From Smithella sp. PtaU1.Bin162 (GTDB lineage Bacteria > Desulfobacterota > Syntrophia > Syntrophales > Smithellaceae), in assembly GCA_002068015.1 (NCBI GenBank), contig MVRV01000094.1:1-58856 (forward strand): a stretch of 58,856 nucleotides of DNA. The letters run 5' to 3'. A program made the position numbers and the translations under genes. This document shows, in pieces, positions 13,168-22,780 of this stretch (positions are counted from its first letter, which is position 1; the number at the start of each line of letters is the position of its first letter). The notes under the pieces were generated by a model that worked only from the letters and a program-made list of their open reading frames with translations, searched no databases and was not told where the DNA came from.

Positions 13168-13605
13168 ATGTTTACACCAAACTTATGGAGATTTAGAAGA
13201 TTCCCTGATGCTGCTCCTGAAATATTGCGACTGCAGCGGGAAATGAACCGACTCTTTTCCAATGCCGAACAAAGTACTCCGCACGATTTTCCAGCGGTAA
13301 ACATCTGGGAGGATGCCGTGAGCGCTTTCGTCACGGCGGAATTACCCGGAATTGATCCGGAAAAACTTGATATCGAGGTTACCGGTGATATTCTAACTCT
13401 CTCTGGAACAAGTCGTGTTGAAACTCTGAAGGAAGGAGAAACTTACCTGCGACAGGAAAGAGTCCAAGGTGGTTTCAAGCGAAAGATACAGTTGTCTTTC
13501 CCTGTCGACGCCAAAAACGTGGAAGCACATTATGAAAAGGGCATCTTGAGCATTAAGCTGCCCCGCTTGAAAGAAAGCCTTCCCAAAAAAATCAAGATAA
13601 ATTAA
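13168..13605 (+). CDS. Hsp20/alpha-crystallin small heat shock protein (first copy)
   Basis: 145 residues. The alpha-crystallin domain spans about 45-140, with ELPGIDPEKLDIEVTGDILTL (beta strands 2-4), RQERVQGGFKRKIQLSFPV and the conserved AxYEKGILSIKLP motif; the C-terminal tail LPKKIKIN holds an I-K-I motif. Small heat shock proteins bind unfolding clients without ATP and pass them to DnaK. A strong GAAAGGAGG precedes the ATG. First of two adjacent hsp20 genes only 22 bases apart, divergent from the DnaK operon. Confidence 0.95.
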   Translation: MFTPNLWRFRRFPDAAPEILRLQREMNRLFSNAEQSTPHDFPAVNIWEDAVSAFVTAELPGIDPEKLDIEVTGDILTLSGTSRVETLKEGETYLRQERVQGGFKRKIQLSFPVDAKNVEAHYEKGILSIKLPRLKESLPKKIKIN

Positions 13606-13627
13606 TCAGGAAGGAGGTTGATTGTCC

Positions 13628-14020
13628 ATGTCCGAAAAAGAATTGCATAAAACCGAAAATATCGCGGTAACAGAAAGGATCCGCAACATAAAAACATTTG
13701 TGCCACAGGTGGATATTTATGAAACCAAAGATTCTCTTTTTTTAATAGCCGACATGCCGGGAGTTGATGAAAAAACCGTAGATATAGAGCTGAATAAAAA
13801 CATTCTTACAATTGTCGGAAATGTCTGCCCTGAGGTAATAAAAGATAAAACTATGGTTTATTCCGAATATGAAATCGGCGATTACGAAAGATCTTTCACC
13901 TTATCCGACGAGATAGACCGTGAGAAGATATGTGCAACTGTAAAAAACGGCGTCTTACATTTGGAACTACCGAAAGCGGAAAAAGTTAAACCGAAAAAAA
14001 TTGCCATTAAAGCAGCGTAA
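13628..14020 (+). CDS. Hsp20/alpha-crystallin small heat shock protein (second copy)
   Basis: About 130 residues with an alpha-crystallin domain covering most of the chain (ADMPGVDEKTVDIELNKNIL near 40-60 and ATVKNGVLHLELPKAE near 107-122). The frame also permits a TTG at 13622, but the ATG at 13628 ten bases after AAGGAGG is preferred. It is co-transcribed with the first hsp20 gene. It diverges clearly from both neighbours and has a very short N-terminal arm, the part that sets oligomer size in this family, so it probably forms different assemblies or hetero-oligomers (inference). Confidence 0.93.
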   Translation: MSEKELHKTENIAVTERIRNIKTFVPQVDIYETKDSLFLIADMPGVDEKTVDIELNKNILTIVGNVCPEVIKDKTMVYSEYEIGDYERSFTLSDEIDREKICATVKNGVLHLELPKAEKVKPKKIAIKAA

Positions 14021-14061
14021 AAAGGATGAAGACTGAAGGGCAGAAAAGAGGAATATACAAC

Positions 14062-14240
14062 CGCCGCCTGACGCGGGATAATTCGATTTACCAATTTCAG
14101 CCTGTGACCATTAGGTTATACGCTACGCTTCTGAAATTGGAATCTCATTGCCACGGGTATTAAAAATACCCTCCGCCTGCGGCGGGATAATTCGACTTAC
14201 CAATTTCGCTGCGCTTCGCTTGCGGAATTGGAATCTCATT
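14062..14240. repeat. Palindromic intergenic repeat array, copy set B
   Basis: Same family and orientation as set A. A partial unit (14062-14100) ends GATTTACCAATTTCAG, a spacer follows, and a full unit (about 14138-14207) contains GGGTATT/AATACCC and CCGCC/GGCGG hairpins. A last partial copy (14228-14240) abuts the ribosome site of the third hsp20. CCAATTTCAG (14091-14100) and CTGAAATTGG (14131-14140) form a perfect 10-bp inverted repeat around the spacer. Confidence 0.88.
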
Positions 14241-14254
14241 GGGAGGAAATGATT

Positions 14255-14749
14255 ATGAAAGTAAAAAATTTATTACCGTCCCTCGATAGAAAAAATCGTG
14301 AGGTTATCGATCATCCCTTCTATTCTTTGCAAAAGGAAATGAACAGTCTGTTTGAGGATTTCTTTCAGGGATTTGATGTTGCTCCGAGAAGTTTTTATTC
14401 CGGAGGAATGAAAAACTTTACCCCTTCCCTGGACGTAAAGGAAACGGACAAGGAATTCGTCATTAAAGCCGAACTTCCCGGTGTGGATGAAAAAGATGTT
14501 GAAGTGACGGTGACTGATGATGCCGTGACTATCAAGGGTGAAAAGAAAGAAGAGAAGGAAGATAAAGGGAAAAATTATTATTACATGGAACGTTCCTATG
14601 GTTCTTTTAACCGCACGATTCCTCTTGCCACTGGAGCGGAAGCGGGAAAAGCCGAAGCCAGCTTTAAAAACGGCATCCTCAACATCATAGTTCCCAAAAG
14701 CGAAACAGCCAAAGCCAAGGGAACAAAAGTGCCGATTAAATCAGCTTAA
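14255..14749 (+). CDS. Hsp20/alpha-crystallin small heat shock protein (third copy)
   Basis: About 164 residues from the ATG at 14255, eight bases after GGGAGG. An upstream in-frame TTG at 14228 lies inside the repeat and is rejected. The alpha-crystallin domain (about 50-150) is of the Class A IbpA/Hsp18 type, with LDVKETDKEFVIKAELPGVD, a charged loop rich in KKEEKEDKGK, and ASFKNGILNIIVPKSE. It is separated from the two upstream hsp20 genes by repeat set B, so it may be read through from them or have its own control. A strong terminator-like hairpin follows. Confidence 0.95.
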   Translation: MKVKNLLPSLDRKNREVIDHPFYSLQKEMNSLFEDFFQGFDVAPRSFYSGGMKNFTPSLDVKETDKEFVIKAELPGVDEKDVEVTVTDDAVTIKGEKKEEKEDKGKNYYYMERSYGSFNRTIPLATGAEAGKAEASFKNGILNIIVPKSETAKAKGTKVPIKSA

Positions 14750-15731: not shown

Positions 15732-16508
15732 TCATTTATTTACCGGGCATAACATGTAACAATTAAAACAGTTATATTGAAAACCGACAATCACTGCCTG
15801 ATACAGGCTCATATATTCCGGACTGCTCATCATCTTTTTTTGTTCATCGGGAGTACCATCGATGAATTTCTTCCAGAAATACATATTGCCTGCTATCCCG
15901 TAAGGCTGTGAGTATTTGAGACATTTCATTTCCTGCGTCTTCCCTTCTTCATCAAGCGCATGCCCTGGACACCTCTCTACACAGATATTACACTGTATGC
16001 ACAGGTCTTCCGTCACCTTCGGATCCGGGGGCAATTCCTCATTACAAAGAACCGTCGTAAAGAGTACCCGTGATCCCAAAAGGGGATGAATTATAAGATT
16101 GTGCCTGCCCCAGTTTCCGAGTCCCGCGGCATAGGCGGCATGACGCTGGGAAAAATCAGCCACAAGTCCGTACTTTGCCTCGCGCGCCATATTTAACGGA
16201 TAGGAAACAGGTGTGGACATTGCTTTGAATTTAAATTTTCTCTCCAGATAACGGCAAAGTTTGTAATTACATGATTTCATGAATTCCATAATGTCCAACC
16301 TCCCCCCCATGGCAATCCTTTTATTATCGCTTTCGCAGGTGGACGATTCTTTACAGGCAATAACAATCATTGTTTTCGCTTCAGGAAAAATCGTTCCAAC
16401 AGCAGGAGATTGCGGGCTCTTATATTCGGACACAGATCCAAAGCCCACATCATCGGCACCCAGTCCAAGTACATAATTTTTAATTTCTTCCTTTATTACG
16501 TCAATCAT
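15732..16508 (-). CDS. QueG-like Fe-S protein (epoxyqueuosine reductase-like, 4Fe-4S)
   Basis: About 258 residues from the ATG at 16508, preceded by GGGAGG (a longer frame to 16550 lacks this). The N-terminal half resembles the QueG/reductive dehalogenase-like fold, with GADDVGF, PEAKTMIVIA and GLGNWGRHNLIIHP. A ferredoxin-type segment CIQCNICVERCPG (near 180-192) and a second C-x2-C-x3-CP set at the extreme C-terminus (NCYMLCPV) can ligate clusters. True QueG proteins carry two complete ferredoxin motifs and HEAT repeats; this one is shorter, so it is called QueG-like. Many desulfobacterial paralogues have unknown substrates. A TetR-type palindrome lies in its promoter. Confidence 0.75.
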   Translation of the reverse strand: MIDVIKEEIKNYVLGLGADDVGFGSVSEYKSPQSPAVGTIFPEAKTMIVIACKESSTCESDNKRIAMGGRLDIMEFMKSCNYKLCRYLERKFKFKAMSTPVSYPLNMAREAKYGLVADFSQRHAAYAAGLGNWGRHNLIIHPLLGSRVLFTTVLCNEELPPDPKVTEDLCIQCNICVERCPGHALDEEGKTQEMKCLKYSQPYGIAGNMYFWKKFIDGTPDEQKKMMSSPEYMSLYQAVIVGFQYNCFNCYMLCPVNK

Positions 16509-16678
16509 GAATAACCTCCCTTGTTTAAATATTATATATAGCTCCGACAAAACTAAAATTTTTAATCTCAGTGCTGATTCCGGCTGTGTCGGGATAGGCC
16601 ATTTATCGCATTACAACCTGAACGCCGTAACTGATTTGTTTTCCGTAAAGATTTACATAAGTCAGCACTTTGCATAGC

Positions 16679-16755: not shown

Positions 16756-18828
16756 CTAATAATTAAAGTTTTTATTGATTCTTCTATTTTTCAGCTCGGC
16801 GAGTTTTCCTTTGTTCCAGCTCAAAACTTTACTGTAGTATTTAGTAAGACGCGCAATACCTTCAACGTCAGTTGATCCGCAATAGATACAATTTTCGTTT
16901 AATCCCGGCGCAGTCTTCCCGCAGGAAAAGCAGGAAGTGAATTCCGGCGAAAAGTCAACCTGGCGATTGGCTGATTTATAAAATACATCCCGGATAAAGC
17001 GGCTCAGTTCCTCCTTATCCGGATGGAAGCTGCCCGTTTGCAAATGCGTAATAATTTCCCCCTCTAGATACTTATGGAAAAAACCTTCCTCAATCACTCT
17101 TTGTATCGGTGTAATATCCGCTGCAACATTCAGATGCGTAGAATTGGTATAATAAACCGCTCCTTCGGCAATACTGCCTTTTACATAACGACCGGCAGCC
17201 GGAGAATAATATTTTAAATCAAGCCTGGCAAAACGGTAAGCCGTGGTTTCCGCAGGTGTTTGTTCCAGCAAAAATCTCATACCGGCATTGACGCTCCAGC
17301 ACTTGACCTCGTTCTGCAAATATTCGACAACTTTTAAACCAAACGCCAGCGCATCGGGTGCTTCATGTAACTGTTTGCCCAGATGGATTTGAACCAGTTC
17401 ATTCAGACCGGCAAGACCAATAATGTAAAATGACCGGTTCATTCTCAAGTACGGGAAACCATCGTTGTTCATCGCCAGCAAGGCCAGAGGCCCCTCTCCG
17501 GCATAGGAAAGGAGTTTTTCCAGAAAATCCTTTTTCTGAATATGTGCTTCTACCGCAGTAGCAATAATTTCCTGCAGCAAACCCCATAATTTTTTGTCAT
17601 TTCCGGCAGCCTTGTAAGCAATGCGCGGCAAATTTACAGTTACGCTCTGAATCGCCGCAGTACGCATCAGCCATGGTTTATCCAGCTCTTTAATAAAGGA
17701 CGCTTCATCTTTTCCTCCGGCCTTAAAACATACAAAGGAAGAGGCCTCTTTGTCTCTATCAAACACAAAGCATATATTTCCTTTAAGACTTGCTACTGCA
17801 CAGGCCTGTTGCAATAATCCGGAAGCTTCTTCCGCCTGCAAGCTGGATTCTGTTATATGCAGCAGCGGCCGCGGCAAAATGAACGGTTTCCCCGTCGCAT
17901 CACCTTTGATAAACACTTCACAGATGGCCCCCGCAAAGCGCCGGGCATCATCTTCATATTCGGCATAAGTTTTGCCGGTCGGTTCTCCCCCGGGACCGAT
18001 GGCCGGAAGTTTCGCCCAGTGCACTGGTATTTCACAATAGATATGAATGTCAGTATACAGCGCCTGGCCTCCCCGGGGAGCAGCCAATTGCGAAAACTCA
18101 TAGATAAGCATCTGGGCAAACTGCCTTATCTGCTTATCGCTCATTTCTCCCAGATACGGAGCAAAGGAAATATTGAGCGCATCCCAGATAATCGTCCCGG
18201 TAAAGTGCCCCTGCAGGGCGGCGCTGAATCGCACCATATGAGCCAGAAGCACTTCCGCATGTCTGGCTGGTTTTGCGGAATTGATTGCCTGGGGCAGCTT
18301 TAAACCGTTTATTTTTAAATATTCCAGAGTCTGACAGCAACTGTAGGGACGGTCAATGTACCCCAATCCGTGGATATGGATATCTCCTGCGGCATGCGCT
18401 TCACCCGTATCCGGAGAAAAAACATCATAGAGAGAAAACTCTCTTTTAATGCCTTCGGCAAAAATCAGGTTGGTACCTTCCGGAGAATGAGGAATATTGG
18501 CGTTTTCCTTATTTTGATGCAGAATCAACTGACGAACATCATAAAGAGGAAAGCCGAGCCGGCCATGGAGCCGGCGTTCTTTTTCCAATCCTCTTTCAAC
18601 AAGCCGGGCATTAACCAATTCACGAATCAACGCCGTTGTAAGCACTCCGATACTGGAAGAGAAAATCTGCTTTTCCACTTCCTTGGATATTTCCTGGGCC
18701 AGTTTATTGTCAATATTCGCTTCCCGCACCAGTGCATCCACTATACGCTGGCGATTCCAGCGGGAGATTTCTTCACCGGAAGTGCGTACAAAAAGAGTCA
18801 AATCAGTAGTTTCAGAGTTTTCTTTCAT
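16756..18828 (-). CDS. nrdD: Anaerobic ribonucleoside-triphosphate reductase homologue lacking the radical glycine
   Basis: 690 residues with class III (NrdD) architecture: ATP-cone near 10-95, a large ten-stranded barrel (HIHGLGYIDRPYSCCQTLEYL, APRGGQALYTDIH, SVTVNLPRIAY) and the C-terminal Zn site CFSCG plus CIYCGS. The usual glycyl-radical motif R-x-T-G-Y is here ARLTKYYSK, with Lys663 (AAA, 16842-16840) in place of the radical Gly, while flanking WNKGKLAEL is conserved. Class III enzymes need that Gly radical to oxidise the active-site Cys. No nrdG activase is adjacent. The ATG lies three bases after the HD-domain gene stop without a clear ribosome site, suggesting coupling. It may be a divergent enzyme, a regulatory pseudoenzyme or decaying; the full-length intact frame argues against decay. 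Confidence 0.85.
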   Translation of the reverse strand: MKENSETTDLTLFVRTSGEEISRWNRQRIVDALVREANIDNKLAQEISKEVEKQIFSSSIGVLTTALIRELVNARLVERGLEKERRLHGRLGFPLYDVRQLILHQNKENANIPHSPEGTNLIFAEGIKREFSLYDVFSPDTGEAHAAGDIHIHGLGYIDRPYSCCQTLEYLKINGLKLPQAINSAKPARHAEVLLAHMVRFSAALQGHFTGTIIWDALNISFAPYLGEMSDKQIRQFAQMLIYEFSQLAAPRGGQALYTDIHIYCEIPVHWAKLPAIGPGGEPTGKTYAEYEDDARRFAGAICEVFIKGDATGKPFILPRPLLHITESSLQAEEASGLLQQACAVASLKGNICFVFDRDKEASSFVCFKAGGKDEASFIKELDKPWLMRTAAIQSVTVNLPRIAYKAAGNDKKLWGLLQEIIATAVEAHIQKKDFLEKLLSYAGEGPLALLAMNNDGFPYLRMNRSFYIIGLAGLNELVQIHLGKQLHEAPDALAFGLKVVEYLQNEVKCWSVNAGMRFLLEQTPAETTAYRFARLDLKYYSPAAGRYVKGSIAEGAVYYTNSTHLNVAADITPIQRVIEEGFFHKYLEGEIITHLQTGSFHPDKEELSRFIRDVFYKSANRQVDFSPEFTSCFSCGKTAPGLNENCIYCGSTDVEGIARLTKYYSKVLSWNKGKLAELKNRRINKNFNY

Positions 18829-18831
18829 AGT

Positions 18832-20250
18832 TCAGATATTCGTCGGTGTTACCGTTTCCAGAAAGTTTAGCACCTTTTCCGCGGCACAGGACAGTTCTTC
18901 ATCATAATCATGATTGAGCGCAAACACCCGAAAATGCATTACCCGGGCGGGGATAAAGCGATATATTTCCATCAGCGCCGAAGGTGAAGTAAGCCCGGTC
19001 GCCGGATTAAAAATATTGACTCTTTTACCCGGTTCGGCAATTGGATTGAGCGGTCGCGGATCCTGGGTAGCCAGATCTACTTTGAAAGAAATTTTCCTGA
19101 GCTTTGCCGGTAGATTTTCCCGAATTTTTGCTTCGTAATCTCCGGCCTGAGAAAAACCTGTACCACGATAAATCCGGCCGATGGAAATTTCCGCCGAAAA
19201 AGCCATCTTCCATTTTACTTCCCGATCGTGCAGTTTTTTCCACTCCCGCGCCAGTTTTTTCTTTTCTCCATCTTTTGCCGCAAGCCAGTTTTGCACCTCA
19301 CTGAATAAAAACCATTCATCACAATGTAAATAGCCATCCAGGTTTTGAAGAGGATTGCCGGGAAAGAGCAGATTCACCGTATCGCGGAATATTTCCTGCA
19401 GATGCAAGTCCAGCGCACGTGTTGTCCTGTGAAAATAAACATTACTGTAAAGATTTAGCCGTGCATTGAGAAACCTTCCCATTGCCGATATGCCCGATTG
19501 ATGGAGTGTAATGCCCTCGTGAGTAAAAAAAGTATAATAACGCAGGCGGGGAATATCGACCATATCAAGCGAAAATCCGGTCATATAGGCATCGCGCTGA
19601 ACATAATCCAGATTATCCACCGTATAGATACCGGAAAAAAGCTGCCGCAGCAGACGTAACCAGCGAGGTTCTTTTCCTTCGAAAGCTTCCGGCATTTTTA
19701 TCAGATAAGCCACCTGCTTTGAATTTAAAACTTCGTCTGAGGCAAAAGCGCCGGAAGGACTGCGCCGAATGTGCGCAATCAATGCTCCGAGTTTTTTGAT
19801 AATGATCTGCTGTCCGATTAACTCATGAGTCAATTTCCACTGTCTTAAAAAATGTTCATCGAAAAAATGGCCGTAAGGACCGTGTCCCACATCATGCAGA
19901 AGTCCCGCAATCCGCATCAATTCTTCCACATAATTTACGGAAGGCACATCCTTGCAGACATCCCGCAGGCTGGGATAGAGATGTTTGGCAAATTCACCGG
20001 CCACATGCATTGTTCCCAGGGAATGCTGAAAGCGGGAATGCTCCGCCGCGGGATAAACCCAGCGGGCGCTTTGCAACTGATAAATCCTCCGCAACCGCTG
20101 TAGCCAGGGAGAATCAATCAGATCTTTTTCCGTTGTCTCGGATGGGTCATTATCCGGCGGCACGGTAAAAAAGGCATATTGATGAATGGGATCGGCGATC
20201 AGCGCCATTCCCTTATAAATGTTATAATTATCGGCAGCAGTCTTTTTCAT
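18832..20250 (-). CDS. HD-domain phosphohydrolase (dGTPase/SAMHD1-like family)
   Basis: 472 residues. An N-terminal segment DPIHQYAFF...LIDSPWLQRLRRI leads into HSRFQHSLGTMHVAGEF and the metal motif LLHDVGHGPYGHFFDE with a following THE, giving the H...HD...D ligand set of HD phosphohydrolases. The order of motifs matches the COG1078/SAMHD1-like group, several of which hydrolyse dNTPs to deoxynucleosides and triphosphate. It is followed after three bases by the NrdD homologue, so a dNTP-pool function for the pair is plausible. No strong ribosome site precedes the ATG at 20250. Family call firm, substrate inferred. Confidence 0.87.
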   Translation of the reverse strand: MKKTAADNYNIYKGMALIADPIHQYAFFTVPPDNDPSETTEKDLIDSPWLQRLRRIYQLQSARWVYPAAEHSRFQHSLGTMHVAGEFAKHLYPSLRDVCKDVPSVNYVEELMRIAGLLHDVGHGPYGHFFDEHFLRQWKLTHELIGQQIIIKKLGALIAHIRRSPSGAFASDEVLNSKQVAYLIKMPEAFEGKEPRWLRLLRQLFSGIYTVDNLDYVQRDAYMTGFSLDMVDIPRLRYYTFFTHEGITLHQSGISAMGRFLNARLNLYSNVYFHRTTRALDLHLQEIFRDTVNLLFPGNPLQNLDGYLHCDEWFLFSEVQNWLAAKDGEKKKLAREWKKLHDREVKWKMAFSAEISIGRIYRGTGFSQAGDYEAKIRENLPAKLRKISFKVDLATQDPRPLNPIAEPGKRVNIFNPATGLTSPSALMEIYRFIPARVMHFRVFALNHDYDEELSCAAEKVLNFLETVTPTNI

Positions 20251-20386: not shown

Positions 20387-21511
20387 ATGGGAACAAACAA
20401 TGTATTTTTTCTGGAAGTTATAGAATGGTTCGATGAATCAGGCAAAGAAATTATCCACCGGATCCCTCCCGCAGGTTCCGGAGAAATAAAATACGGTGCC
20501 CAATTGACGGTCCGGGAAAGCCAGAGCGCCGTCTTTTTTTATAACGGCAAAGCCTGCGATGCCTTCGGCCCCGGCCGCCACACTCTGAAAACGGCCAACA
20601 TTCCCCTTTTAACCAAAATTCTGGCGATACCCTGGGGAATGACCAGTCCTCTGCGGGCGGAAGTCTATTTTATAAACATGAAGGTATTCCCCAATTTAAA
20701 ATGGGGTACCCGCGATCCGGTCGCTTTCCGGGACCGGGAACTGGGATTAATCCGCCTGCGGGCTTTCGGTGTTTTCAATATCCGGGTTATTCAGCCTTTA
20801 CTGCTCATCAATTCGCTTGCCGGGACCCAGGGAATTTTCAGCACAGAAGAGATTGAAGAGTACCTCAATCGCGTAATAGTCTCGCGTTTTAATGATTATA
20901 TGGGCGAAAACGTGGATACGATTTTCAACCTGCCGGGTAAATACACTGAATTTTCCGAAGGATTAAAAACTTTATTGCAGAATGACTTCAGCAAATTCGG
21001 ACTTGCGCTGACCGAACTCTACATCAATGCAATTACACCACCGCCGGAAGTACAAAAGGCCATTGACGACAAAAGCAGACTGAGCATCTTCGACGACCTC
21101 AACAGTCTTCTGAAGATGAAAGCAGCTATGGCAGTGGAACAGGCCGCCCAAACGCACTCCGAAGCCGGAGCAGGCTTGGGAATGGGCATGGGTTTTATGC
21201 TTCCGGGAATGCTCGCTTCCGCATTTACGGGAACTGCACCGGCCGGAAAAACAGCAGTGCAAAGTTATGCCTGCCCGGATTGCCGGCAGGCAATTCCGCC
21301 CGAATCCAGATTCTGTCCAGCCTGCGGACATCAGCTTTTGATTACGAGCAAATGCGCGTCCTGCGGTAAAAATCTACCGCTCAAGGCCAATTTTTGCGTC
21401 AATTGCGGAACGCCCGTAACAACAAAACCTGTACCGAAAATATGCTCCCGCTGTAAGATGGAAAACCTGCCTGAATCCGTCTATTGCAATAAATGCGGCG
21501 AACGGCTCTGA
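20387..21511 (+). CDS. SPFH/band-7 domain protein with three C-terminal zinc ribbons
   Basis: 374 residues. The first 250 form an SPFH-type domain ([24 protein letters not shown] is the typical entry, then [16 protein letters not shown] and [21 protein letters not shown]). A Gly/Met-rich segment follows, then three Cys4 zinc ribbons at about 298-316, 325-343 and 355-372 (each C-x2-C ... C-x2-C). This layout matches the YdjI/virion-core-protein-like group. SPFH proteins assemble at membranes, but no obvious transmembrane helix is present here. It is followed 36 bases on by another zinc-ribbon protein, presumably its partner. Function unknown. Confidence 0.8.
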
Positions 21512-21547
21512 ACAATAATAATTCCTTCGGAATAAAGGCAACGCCAA

Positions 21548-22780
21548 GTGAATACAACCTGGGACTGGAAGATTGAACAGCAATGCCCGCAATGCGGTGC
21601 ACCGATTATCCTGGACCAGACGGATCGAATTCTTACCTGCGAGTTTTGCCGTACGCGTGTTTATCTCGCGTCCAAGGATCATTATCGTTATTTTATCCCT
21701 CCGGCGGAAGATGTTAACCGGGAAAAATTTTTCCTGCCTTACTTACGAATGAAAGGCCTGTGTTACACTCTTGCAGGAACAAATATTTCCGGCCGTTTTT
21801 TTGATACCACCGCACTTGCCTTAAATACCGCCGTCTTTCCTTCCAACCTGGGATTGCGCCCGCAGGCATTGAAACTTAAATTTGCCGGAAGTGAAGATGC
21901 CGGAAAATTTCTGGAACCGGCTGGCCATAACAGCAAAACAATCTATTCATCTCATCCGTCCCGGGCACCAAAAACTTCCGTCACAAGGAACTATCTTATC
22001 GGCGAAACAGTCAGCGTCATTTATGCCCCGTTTTATTGCGCAAGCGGCTATGTCTACGATGCCGTATTAAAAGAACCGCTATCTCCCCGGGTAAAAGAAG
22101 AAGAATTTAAAAAACTGCCGTTTGCGGCACAAAAGTGGAATTTAAATTTTATTCCTTTGCTTTGCCCGCATTGCGGTGCAGACATGCCCGGAAACAAATC
22201 CGCACTGATTCTTTTTTGTGTTAATTGCAATAATGCCTGGAAATCCGGGAATAACGGTTTTGAAAAAATCAACTTCTCTACTTACGAAACTTCCCGAAAG
22301 GAAGTACACTATCTTCCCTTCTGGCGGATAAAAGCAAATATCGAAGGAATCAAACTGGATTCTTATGCCGATTTGATCAACCTCGCCAACTTGCCCAAAG
22401 CTCCTTCGAAAAGATGGGAGAAAATCCCTTTCTACTTCCGCACACCCGCCTTTAAAATCAACCCGGATTTATTCTTGCGCTGGTGTAAACAGATGACCGC
22501 TTCCTGCAGTGAAGAAAAACCGGCGGAGGAGGTCCCTGCCCAATCCATCTATCCGGTAACCTTGCCGGCGGCGGAAGCGGCAGAAGCCATTGCCGTAATT
22601 CTGGCCGGTCTGATTGTTGATAAAAAAAGACTGGGACAAATGATTAAAACATTTAATATTACCATCGGGGATTTCCTGCTGGAACTTCATCCTTTTGATA
22701 TCGGGCAAAAAGAACTTATTTATTCGCGATCAGGTACGACTATAGATAAATCGGCGCTTATTTTCGGCCAACACATTTAA
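21548..22780 (+). CDS. Uncharacterised zinc-ribbon protein
   Basis: 410 residues from a GTG start. The N-terminus holds a TFIIB-like zinc ribbon (CPQCG at about 13-17 and CEFC near 34-37), and a second ribbon lies in the middle (CPHCG and CVNC, about residues 208-228). The rest is soluble, without recognised catalytic motifs. It follows the SPFH protein in the same operon; paired SPFH and ribbon proteins suggest an assembly at the membrane. I do not recognise a defined family function. Convergent with the flavodoxin-like gene to the right. Confidence 0.75.
   Translation: MNTTWDWKIEQQCPQCGAPIILDQTDRILTCEFCRTRVYLASKDHYRYFIPPAEDVNREKFFLPYLRMKGLCYTLAGTNISGRFFDTTALALNTAVFPSNLGLRPQALKLKFAGSEDAGKFLEPAGHNSKTIYSSHPSRAPKTSVTRNYLIGETVSVIYAPFYCASGYVYDAVLKEPLSPRVKEEEFKKLPFAAQKWNLNFIPLLCPHCGADMPGNKSALILFCVNCNNAWKSGNNGFEKINFSTYETSRKEVHYLPFWRIKANIEGIKLDSYADLINLANLPKAPSKRWEKIPFYFRTPAFKINPDLFLRWCKQMTASCSEEKPAEEVPAQSIYPVTLPAAEAAEAIAVILAGLIVDKKRLGQMIKTFNITIGDFLLELHPFDIGQKELIYSRSGTTIDKSALIFGQHI

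Follow-up and report, generated by a model that had tools for sequence, protein, structure and literature searches.

Results

An NrdD homologue next to an HD-domain gene

We analysed a stretch of DNA of 58,856 nucleotides (the window). Its minus strand encodes, at 16756..18828, a catalytically degenerate homologue of class III ribonucleotide reductase (RNR) of 690 aa, which was recognized from its open reading frame, profile matches and predicted fold and is called NrdD* here. The frame starts with ATG and is intact, with no frame problem. PF13597 (NRDD) matches the protein end to end with 388 bits (cut-off 26.2). TIGR02487 (NrdD) also matches end to end, with 328.8 bits, barely above its cut-off of 326.35. 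By these full-length matches NrdD* belongs to the class III RNRs (NrdD). An AF2 model built from 34 sequences (pLDDT 79.3) predicts the 10-stranded barrel, the C-terminal Zn domain and the loop of this class. The barrel and the C-terminal loop are modelled well; the cone region is modelled poorly, and the nucleotide pocket cannot be judged there. When compared with 8p2s, the model gave a Z of 35.1 and an rmsd of 3.4 over 528 aligned residues, which suggests a class III RNR fold nearly end to end.

The N-terminal ATP-cone-like region (residues 1–95; 18544..18828, minus strand) is the best kept region of NrdD*. At the other end, the Zn-site quartet C633, C636, C647 and C650 (16879..16932, minus strand) is present and invariant across relatives, and WNKGKLAEL is in place. 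The C-terminal region is conserved, as the preliminary description of this DNA had claimed.

A second gene on the minus strand (18832..20250) lies 3 nt upstream of NrdD*, and the two probably share an operon. By homology it encodes an HD-domain dNTP triphosphohydrolase-like protein of the COG1078/SAMHD1/EF1143 type. It is homologous to COG1078-type HD proteins, 2hek (1.4e-27), SAMHD1 and the protein of 2o6i/3irh/4lrl, which we take to be EF1143. The metal site H76, H119-D120 and D212 is invariant in all relatives covering those positions. With this H...HD...D site and its homology, the HD protein is a predicted dNTPase.

Lysine at the glycyl-radical position

NrdD* carries Lys663 (codon AAA, 16840..16842, read 16842-16840 on the minus strand) where the C-terminal loop of class III enzymes (RVxG[FWY]-like) has its glycyl-radical Gly. 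Upon alignment with solved NrdD and with orthologues, Lys663 falls on the radical Gly of P. copri NrdD (RLTKYY versus RITGYL) and on that of intact orthologues. The former glycyl-radical loop (residues 657–684; 16777..16860, minus strand) is conserved except for T659A, G663K/Q/R, T666S and G677A. Together with the end-to-end profile matches, this bears out the earlier claim of a full-length NrdD homologue with Lys for the radical Gly. A conserved Gly elsewhere in the radical loop was searched for by alignment and none was found: RLTKYYSK contains none, and the G of WNKGK occurs in canonical enzymes too.

NrdD* orthologues were found in about 127 of 149 related genomes and are missing from about 22. 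In the named genome collection there are 39 loci, mostly from MAGs labelled Syntrophaceae, Smithellaceae, Syntrophales or Deltaproteobacteria. The frames are open and full length across about 20 families. Gly occurs at site 663 in 0 of the 66 members tabulated as the Gly-less set. Over Gly-less orthologues from dozens of independent genomes, the site holds K (30), Q (29), R (8), N (2) or P (1); one locus (L046) has Leu. The codons are ordinary (AAA 27, CAG 21, CAA 8, others), and Gly to Arg to Gln or Lys can be reached by single steps. Members of the family of the window protein have Lys and, in a few cases, Arg. Other Syntrophales families have Gln, Arg, Asn or Pro, and some keep Gly. The Gly-less lineage covers most of the about 20 family-level groups sampled in Syntrophales. 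The preliminary description had raised the possibility that Lys is shared by a clade; what is shared is the loss of Gly, while the residue varies and Lys is not universal.

A sequencing or assembly error at Lys663 was rejected because many independent genomes lack Gly there, including one that consists of a single contig of 3,179,300 bases (G084, locus L082, Syntrophus type) and has Arg at the site. A special genetic code or a frameshift is not needed, since the frame is open. The ordinary codons and the K/Q/R/N/P found in independent genomes indicate that Lys663 is real rather than due to chance or error. The residue is nearly always a long polar side chain in the Gly-less clade (mostly K/Q/R). 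As a speculation, this side chain may plug a cavity no longer filled by the lost finger loop.

Two genomes have extra copies. In G003, a second, partial NrdD* (L067, G003:C51) lies at a contig end and adjoins gmhA-dnaK. G110 carries two different copies, 78% and 59% identical to the window protein. These are either duplications or mixed bins.

Other catalytic residues

The reducing Cys (T4 C79, T. maritima C125; PMC4493059) is replaced by Ser163 in the window protein (18340..18342, minus strand), and Cys occupies this position in 0 of the 66 Gly-less orthologues tabulated. Cys164 and Cys165 adjoin Ser163, and a shifted reducing Cys is possible. The finger-loop/CCR region (residues 353–382; 17683..17772, minus strand) is degenerate. 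Here Phe368 replaces the second Cys of the CCR/GCR motif, giving VCFK, and the pLDDT of the model is below 50 at 363–376. The aligned position holds Cys in 12 of 66 Gly-less relatives. L010, L020, L026 and L027 have Lys at 663 and still keep C-C-R. In crystals of T. maritima NrdD the SCCR motif lies away from the tip of the finger loop (PMC4493059), so the exact thiyl residue of this subclass is uncertain. In the HxHD triphosphate motif, described for T. maritima NrdD, the NrdD* lineage keeps both His and has lost the Asp (D154 to G/A/S); the old substrate site may therefore bind poorly.

We counted how many positions invariant in the intact enzymes are kept at ≥90% in the Gly-less set. The values are 81% for the ATP-cone, 53–62% for the barrel, 50% for the Gly loop and only 16% for the finger-loop region. 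All four Zn Cys are kept. The statement that the ATP-cone is retained holds for these positions, whereas the Pfam score of the region (21.7 bits) is under the cut-off of 25.8. For close pairs, dN/dS is 0.065–0.18 in the Gly-less set and 0.055–0.12 in intact enzymes, as simple Nei-Gojobori counts with some dS near saturation. By these counts the Gly-less NrdD* is under strong purifying selection. With a low dN/dS, a kept cone and kept Zn Cys next to a decayed finger loop, Cys and Gly, the protein is maintained and its catalytic sites are not. Between G000 and G003, NrdD* is 82% identical and canonical NrdD 93%, so NrdD* diverges faster.

Intact orthologues, nrdG and other RNRs

The intact NrdD gene is present in well over 100 Desulfobacterota genomes outside Syntrophales. 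All 31 intact orthologues examined there have invariant YC, SECCRL and ITGYF, and NrdG is adjacent, downstream, in 30 of the 31 loci. These NrdDs of nrdD-nrdH-nrdG operons (L060, L142–L171) are direct orthologues of NrdD* and share its N-terminal region; aligned along its length, the window protein has 54% identity to L060. In contrast, NrdD* has the HD gene upstream, and nrdG is adjacent to it in none of the Syntrophales loci in our neighbourhood count. No NrdG is linked to the window NrdD*, in agreement with what had first been noted for the window.

The source genome carries canonical NrdD (MCCRL, RVVGYL) followed by NrdG elsewhere (L002). This NrdG could act on NrdD* in trans. A class I/II-type large subunit match, which we read as NrdJ, is also present. 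Canonical NrdD is found in 129 of the 149 related genomes and is only about 26% identical to NrdD*. NrdD* is kept without it in G028, G046, G066, G076, G107 and G113. Genomes with NrdD* and no canonical NrdD all have an NrdJ-type gene, except G023, an 85%-complete MAG. The question of whether NrdD* genomes also have a canonical NrdD or NrdJ is thus answered with yes, apart from this MAG.

Order of losses

Rooting on canonical NrdD was spoiled by long branches meeting, and the tree was rebuilt with intact orthologues as the outgroup. Catalytic columns were removed. The search was quick, the branches are long, and support is by SH-aLRT only, with no bootstrap. In this tree the intact orthologues (branch 99) are followed by L172, by the Gly-keeping Syntrophales and by one Gly-less clade (97), in which the members with Arg (Syntrophus type), Gln and Lys all fall. 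At least two Gly changes are required, one for the Syntrophales clade and one for L172. Gly was therefore lost about once within Syntrophales; the branching among Gly-keepers is tentative.

In the Gly-keeping Syntrophales the nrdG linkage is already gone, the motif is often SECG or worse instead of SECC, and in 13 of them the HD gene is already upstream. The change of gene partner and a large part of the cysteine losses therefore preceded the loss of Gly. The sequences show the losses and their approximate order, as well as the selection and the gene pairing.

Four Syntrophales proteins of group f2 (L089, L091, L092 and L097) keep the reducing Cys, SECC and Gly, with N replacing the Arg of CCR. 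Neither nrdG nor the HD gene adjoins them. They are living intermediates and may still be able to form a radical. L172 (G270:C137), from a family outside Syntrophales, is a degenerate NrdD* that has Asn where L060 has the radical Gly680, and PDYGTV for SECCRL; its HD homologue is on a separate contig. It may stem from an independent second loss of Gly or from an old transfer.

Pairing with the HD gene

The HD gene lies directly upstream of NrdD* on the same strand in 75 of the 89 Syntrophales loci with room to tell, with a median of 5 nt between match ends. Of the 149 genomes, 116 have both genes, 9 only HD, 11 only NrdD* and 13 neither (Fisher p 4e-7, the genomes not being independent). Outside Syntrophales there is no HD-NrdD linkage: in the genomes compared, the two genes sit on separate contigs, and HD has no NrdD nearby. 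Exceptions exist within the order as well. The Syntrophus-like family (L082–L084) keeps NrdD* and has no HD gene, L200, L201 and L204 keep HD and have lost NrdD*, and in some f2 genomes both are present but apart. In L203, a 147-bp NrdD* remnant (L203:3787-3933, genome G018) sits right after the HD gene, the remainder of the gene being lost. These exceptions count against an obligate complex.

The HD subfamily (window 18832-20250; L188–L199) is also found unlinked in other Desulfobacterota families. In L198 it is near gmhA, which suggests that NrdD* was inserted between HD and gmhA.

Discussion

Judged from its residues, NrdD* is very probably not a radical ribonucleotide reductase. The preliminary description held that the known class III mechanism cannot run in this protein. 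We agree on wider grounds, since the reducing Cys and usually the CCR Cys have gone along with the Gly; whether the active-site Cys are kept, a question it had posed, is answered in the negative.

The best explanation, to which we give a probability of roughly 45%, is that NrdD* is a pseudoenzyme that has been retained, probably as a regulator of dNTP pools that binds nucleotides and works with the HD protein. In Syntrophales, NrdD* is the orthologue of the usual NrdD of Desulfobacterota. It left the nrdD-nrdH-nrdG operon, came to lie between the HD-domain dNTPase gene and gmhA, and lost the reducing Cys, the CCR motif and lastly the radical Gly. Meanwhile, dNTP synthesis would have been taken over by the second NrdD/NrdG and/or NrdJ. 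The barrel, the Zn site and the ATP-cone are retained. SAMHD1-kind HD dNTPases lower dNTP pools under nucleotide control. ATP-cones read ATP versus dATP (PMC11226230). It is most likely that ATP, dATP or other (d)NTPs bind to NrdD* and that the protein serves as a nucleotide sensor or scaffold tuning the dNTP pool. It probably controls or assists the HD triphosphohydrolase encoded just upstream, or informs the dNTP economy more broadly. Both the nucleotide binding and the physical or regulatory coupling to the HD protein are what we infer. The earlier proposal of a regulator or putative dNTP sensor built from a reductase fits the kept cone, the purifying selection and the pairing best. A bolder form is possible and rather unlikely: in a two-gene dNTP rheostat, the dead RNR would act as allosteric sensor subunit for a bacterial dNTPase of the SAMHD1 kind. 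If it is true, the fold that once made dNTPs now decides the timing of their destruction.

The barrel might instead have become a new enzyme that, with radical chemistry gone, runs a non-radical nucleotide reaction, for example through newly fixed His262, Arg200 and Arg320 and the long polar residue 663. The positions newly fixed in the Gly-less clade (N262H, K200R, Q248L, K320R, S528T), the mostly long and polar replacements at 663 and the purifying selection agree with this. However, even among close relatives the former active-site loop varies or is missing, which is not what would be expected of a functioning active site. The changes at 262 and 200 do not track the Gly loss either, because most or all Gly-keepers have already lost the intact residues there. 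We consider a new enzyme unlikely. Slightly less likely again is that NrdD* has no nucleotide role and partners another protein, either canonical NrdD or some other client, in a structural or dominant manner. Conservation of the loop and Zn domain despite lost catalysis would suit such a partner, as would the occurrence of NrdD* in genomes without the HD gene. On the other hand, mixed dimers with canonical NrdD are unlikely at about 26% identity, six genomes keep NrdD* where canonical NrdD is absent, and the best conserved part is the nucleotide-binding cone.

Continued radical chemistry, with an aminoacyl radical on Lys, Gln or Arg or with another donor, as the preliminary description had allowed, is very improbable. 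Ala, Ser and Thr radical enzymes do exist in the PFL branch (PMC11528403), the C-terminal loop of NrdD* stays conserved, and some Lys members retain C-C-R. Against this, the family has no fixed residue at 663 (K/Q/R/N/P), none of the tabulated Gly-less members has the reducing Cys, and most of them have no CCR Cys. The window protein itself has Phe there and no linked activase. Least probable of all is a decaying, functionless relic or an assembly error. The loss of NrdD* from about 22 relatives, the remnant in G018 and the divergence faster than that of canonical NrdD would be expected of a relic. Open full-length frames in about 20 families, a dN/dS of about 0.1 and a conserved gene pair would not, and an error would not recur across independent assemblies or in the genome that consists of one contig (L082).

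Compared with the class III NrdDs of T4, T. maritima and P. copri, NrdD* shares the full-length fold, the ATP-cone-like N terminus, the Zn Cys quartet, the C-terminal loop and HxH. It has no radical Gly, reducing Cys, HxHD Asp or linked nrdG, and its CCR is broken. Aminoacyl radical enzymes are likewise relatives of glycyl radical enzymes without Gly. Those enzymes, members of the PFL branch, carry Ala, Ser or Thr, keep the catalytic Cys and have their activase next to them (PMC11528403); NrdD* (Lys663, Phe368, no adjacent activase) differs on these points and is not one of them. The nearest concept, by analogy, is the inactive R1 homologue of cytomegaloviruses (UL45, M45; PMC5469499), an RNR large-subunit homologue that has lost reductase activity and is kept for another role. 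UL45 and M45 are viral homologues of cellular R1 acting on host signalling, whereas NrdD* is bacterial, belongs to class III and has a dNTPase-like gene as its partner. The HD neighbour shares its HD active site and homology with the SAMHD1/EF1143/COG1078 dNTPases (2hek, 2o6i, SAMHD1). Known members of this group sense dNTPs inside their own oligomer. We found no description of an HD dNTPase with an RNR-derived partner in the open-access literature.

The radical Gly was believed to be universal in class III RNRs. A survey by Fu et al. (2024; PMC11528403) reports enzymes with Ala, Ser or Thr radicals in the PFL branch; for class III RNRs it reports the Gly form only, without exception. The Syntrophales lineage, under strong selection, is an exception. 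Our search of the open-access literature (subscription papers were outside its scope) found no paper that treats Syntrophus together with NrdD, and none that describes Gly-less class III RNRs or an operon of dNTPase and RNR genes. Within that literature, the NrdD* lineage is a previously undescribed pseudoenzyme branch of class III RNR. The surviving intermediates reveal that the activase partner was lost first, then cysteines, then the glycine, and the lineage is a rare record of an essential enzyme becoming a pseudoenzyme. The sequences suggest that an old enzyme turned into a nucleotide-sensing regulator. If NrdD* senses dNTPs for the HD enzyme, it would be a direct model for the control of bacterial SAMHD1-like enzymes. 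Annotations of "anaerobic ribonucleoside-triphosphate reductase" in Syntrophales are probably wrong as statements of function.

Neighbouring genes

Three small heat shock (Hsp20-like) genes in a row (window 13168-14749) lie between dnaK-grpE-gmhA and NrdD*. A QueG/reductive-dehalogenase-like 4Fe-4S protein, under the family cut-offs, is encoded just downstream of NrdD* on the same strand (window 15732-16550); no match to it adjoins NrdD* in the relatives searched. On the strand opposite HD-NrdD*, window 20387-22780 encodes two zinc-ribbon proteins, one of them SPFH-like. The gene order dnaK, gmhA, NrdD*, HD, SPFH is also kept in other families, and SPFH-like/zinc-ribbon genes adjoin HD in several other families too.
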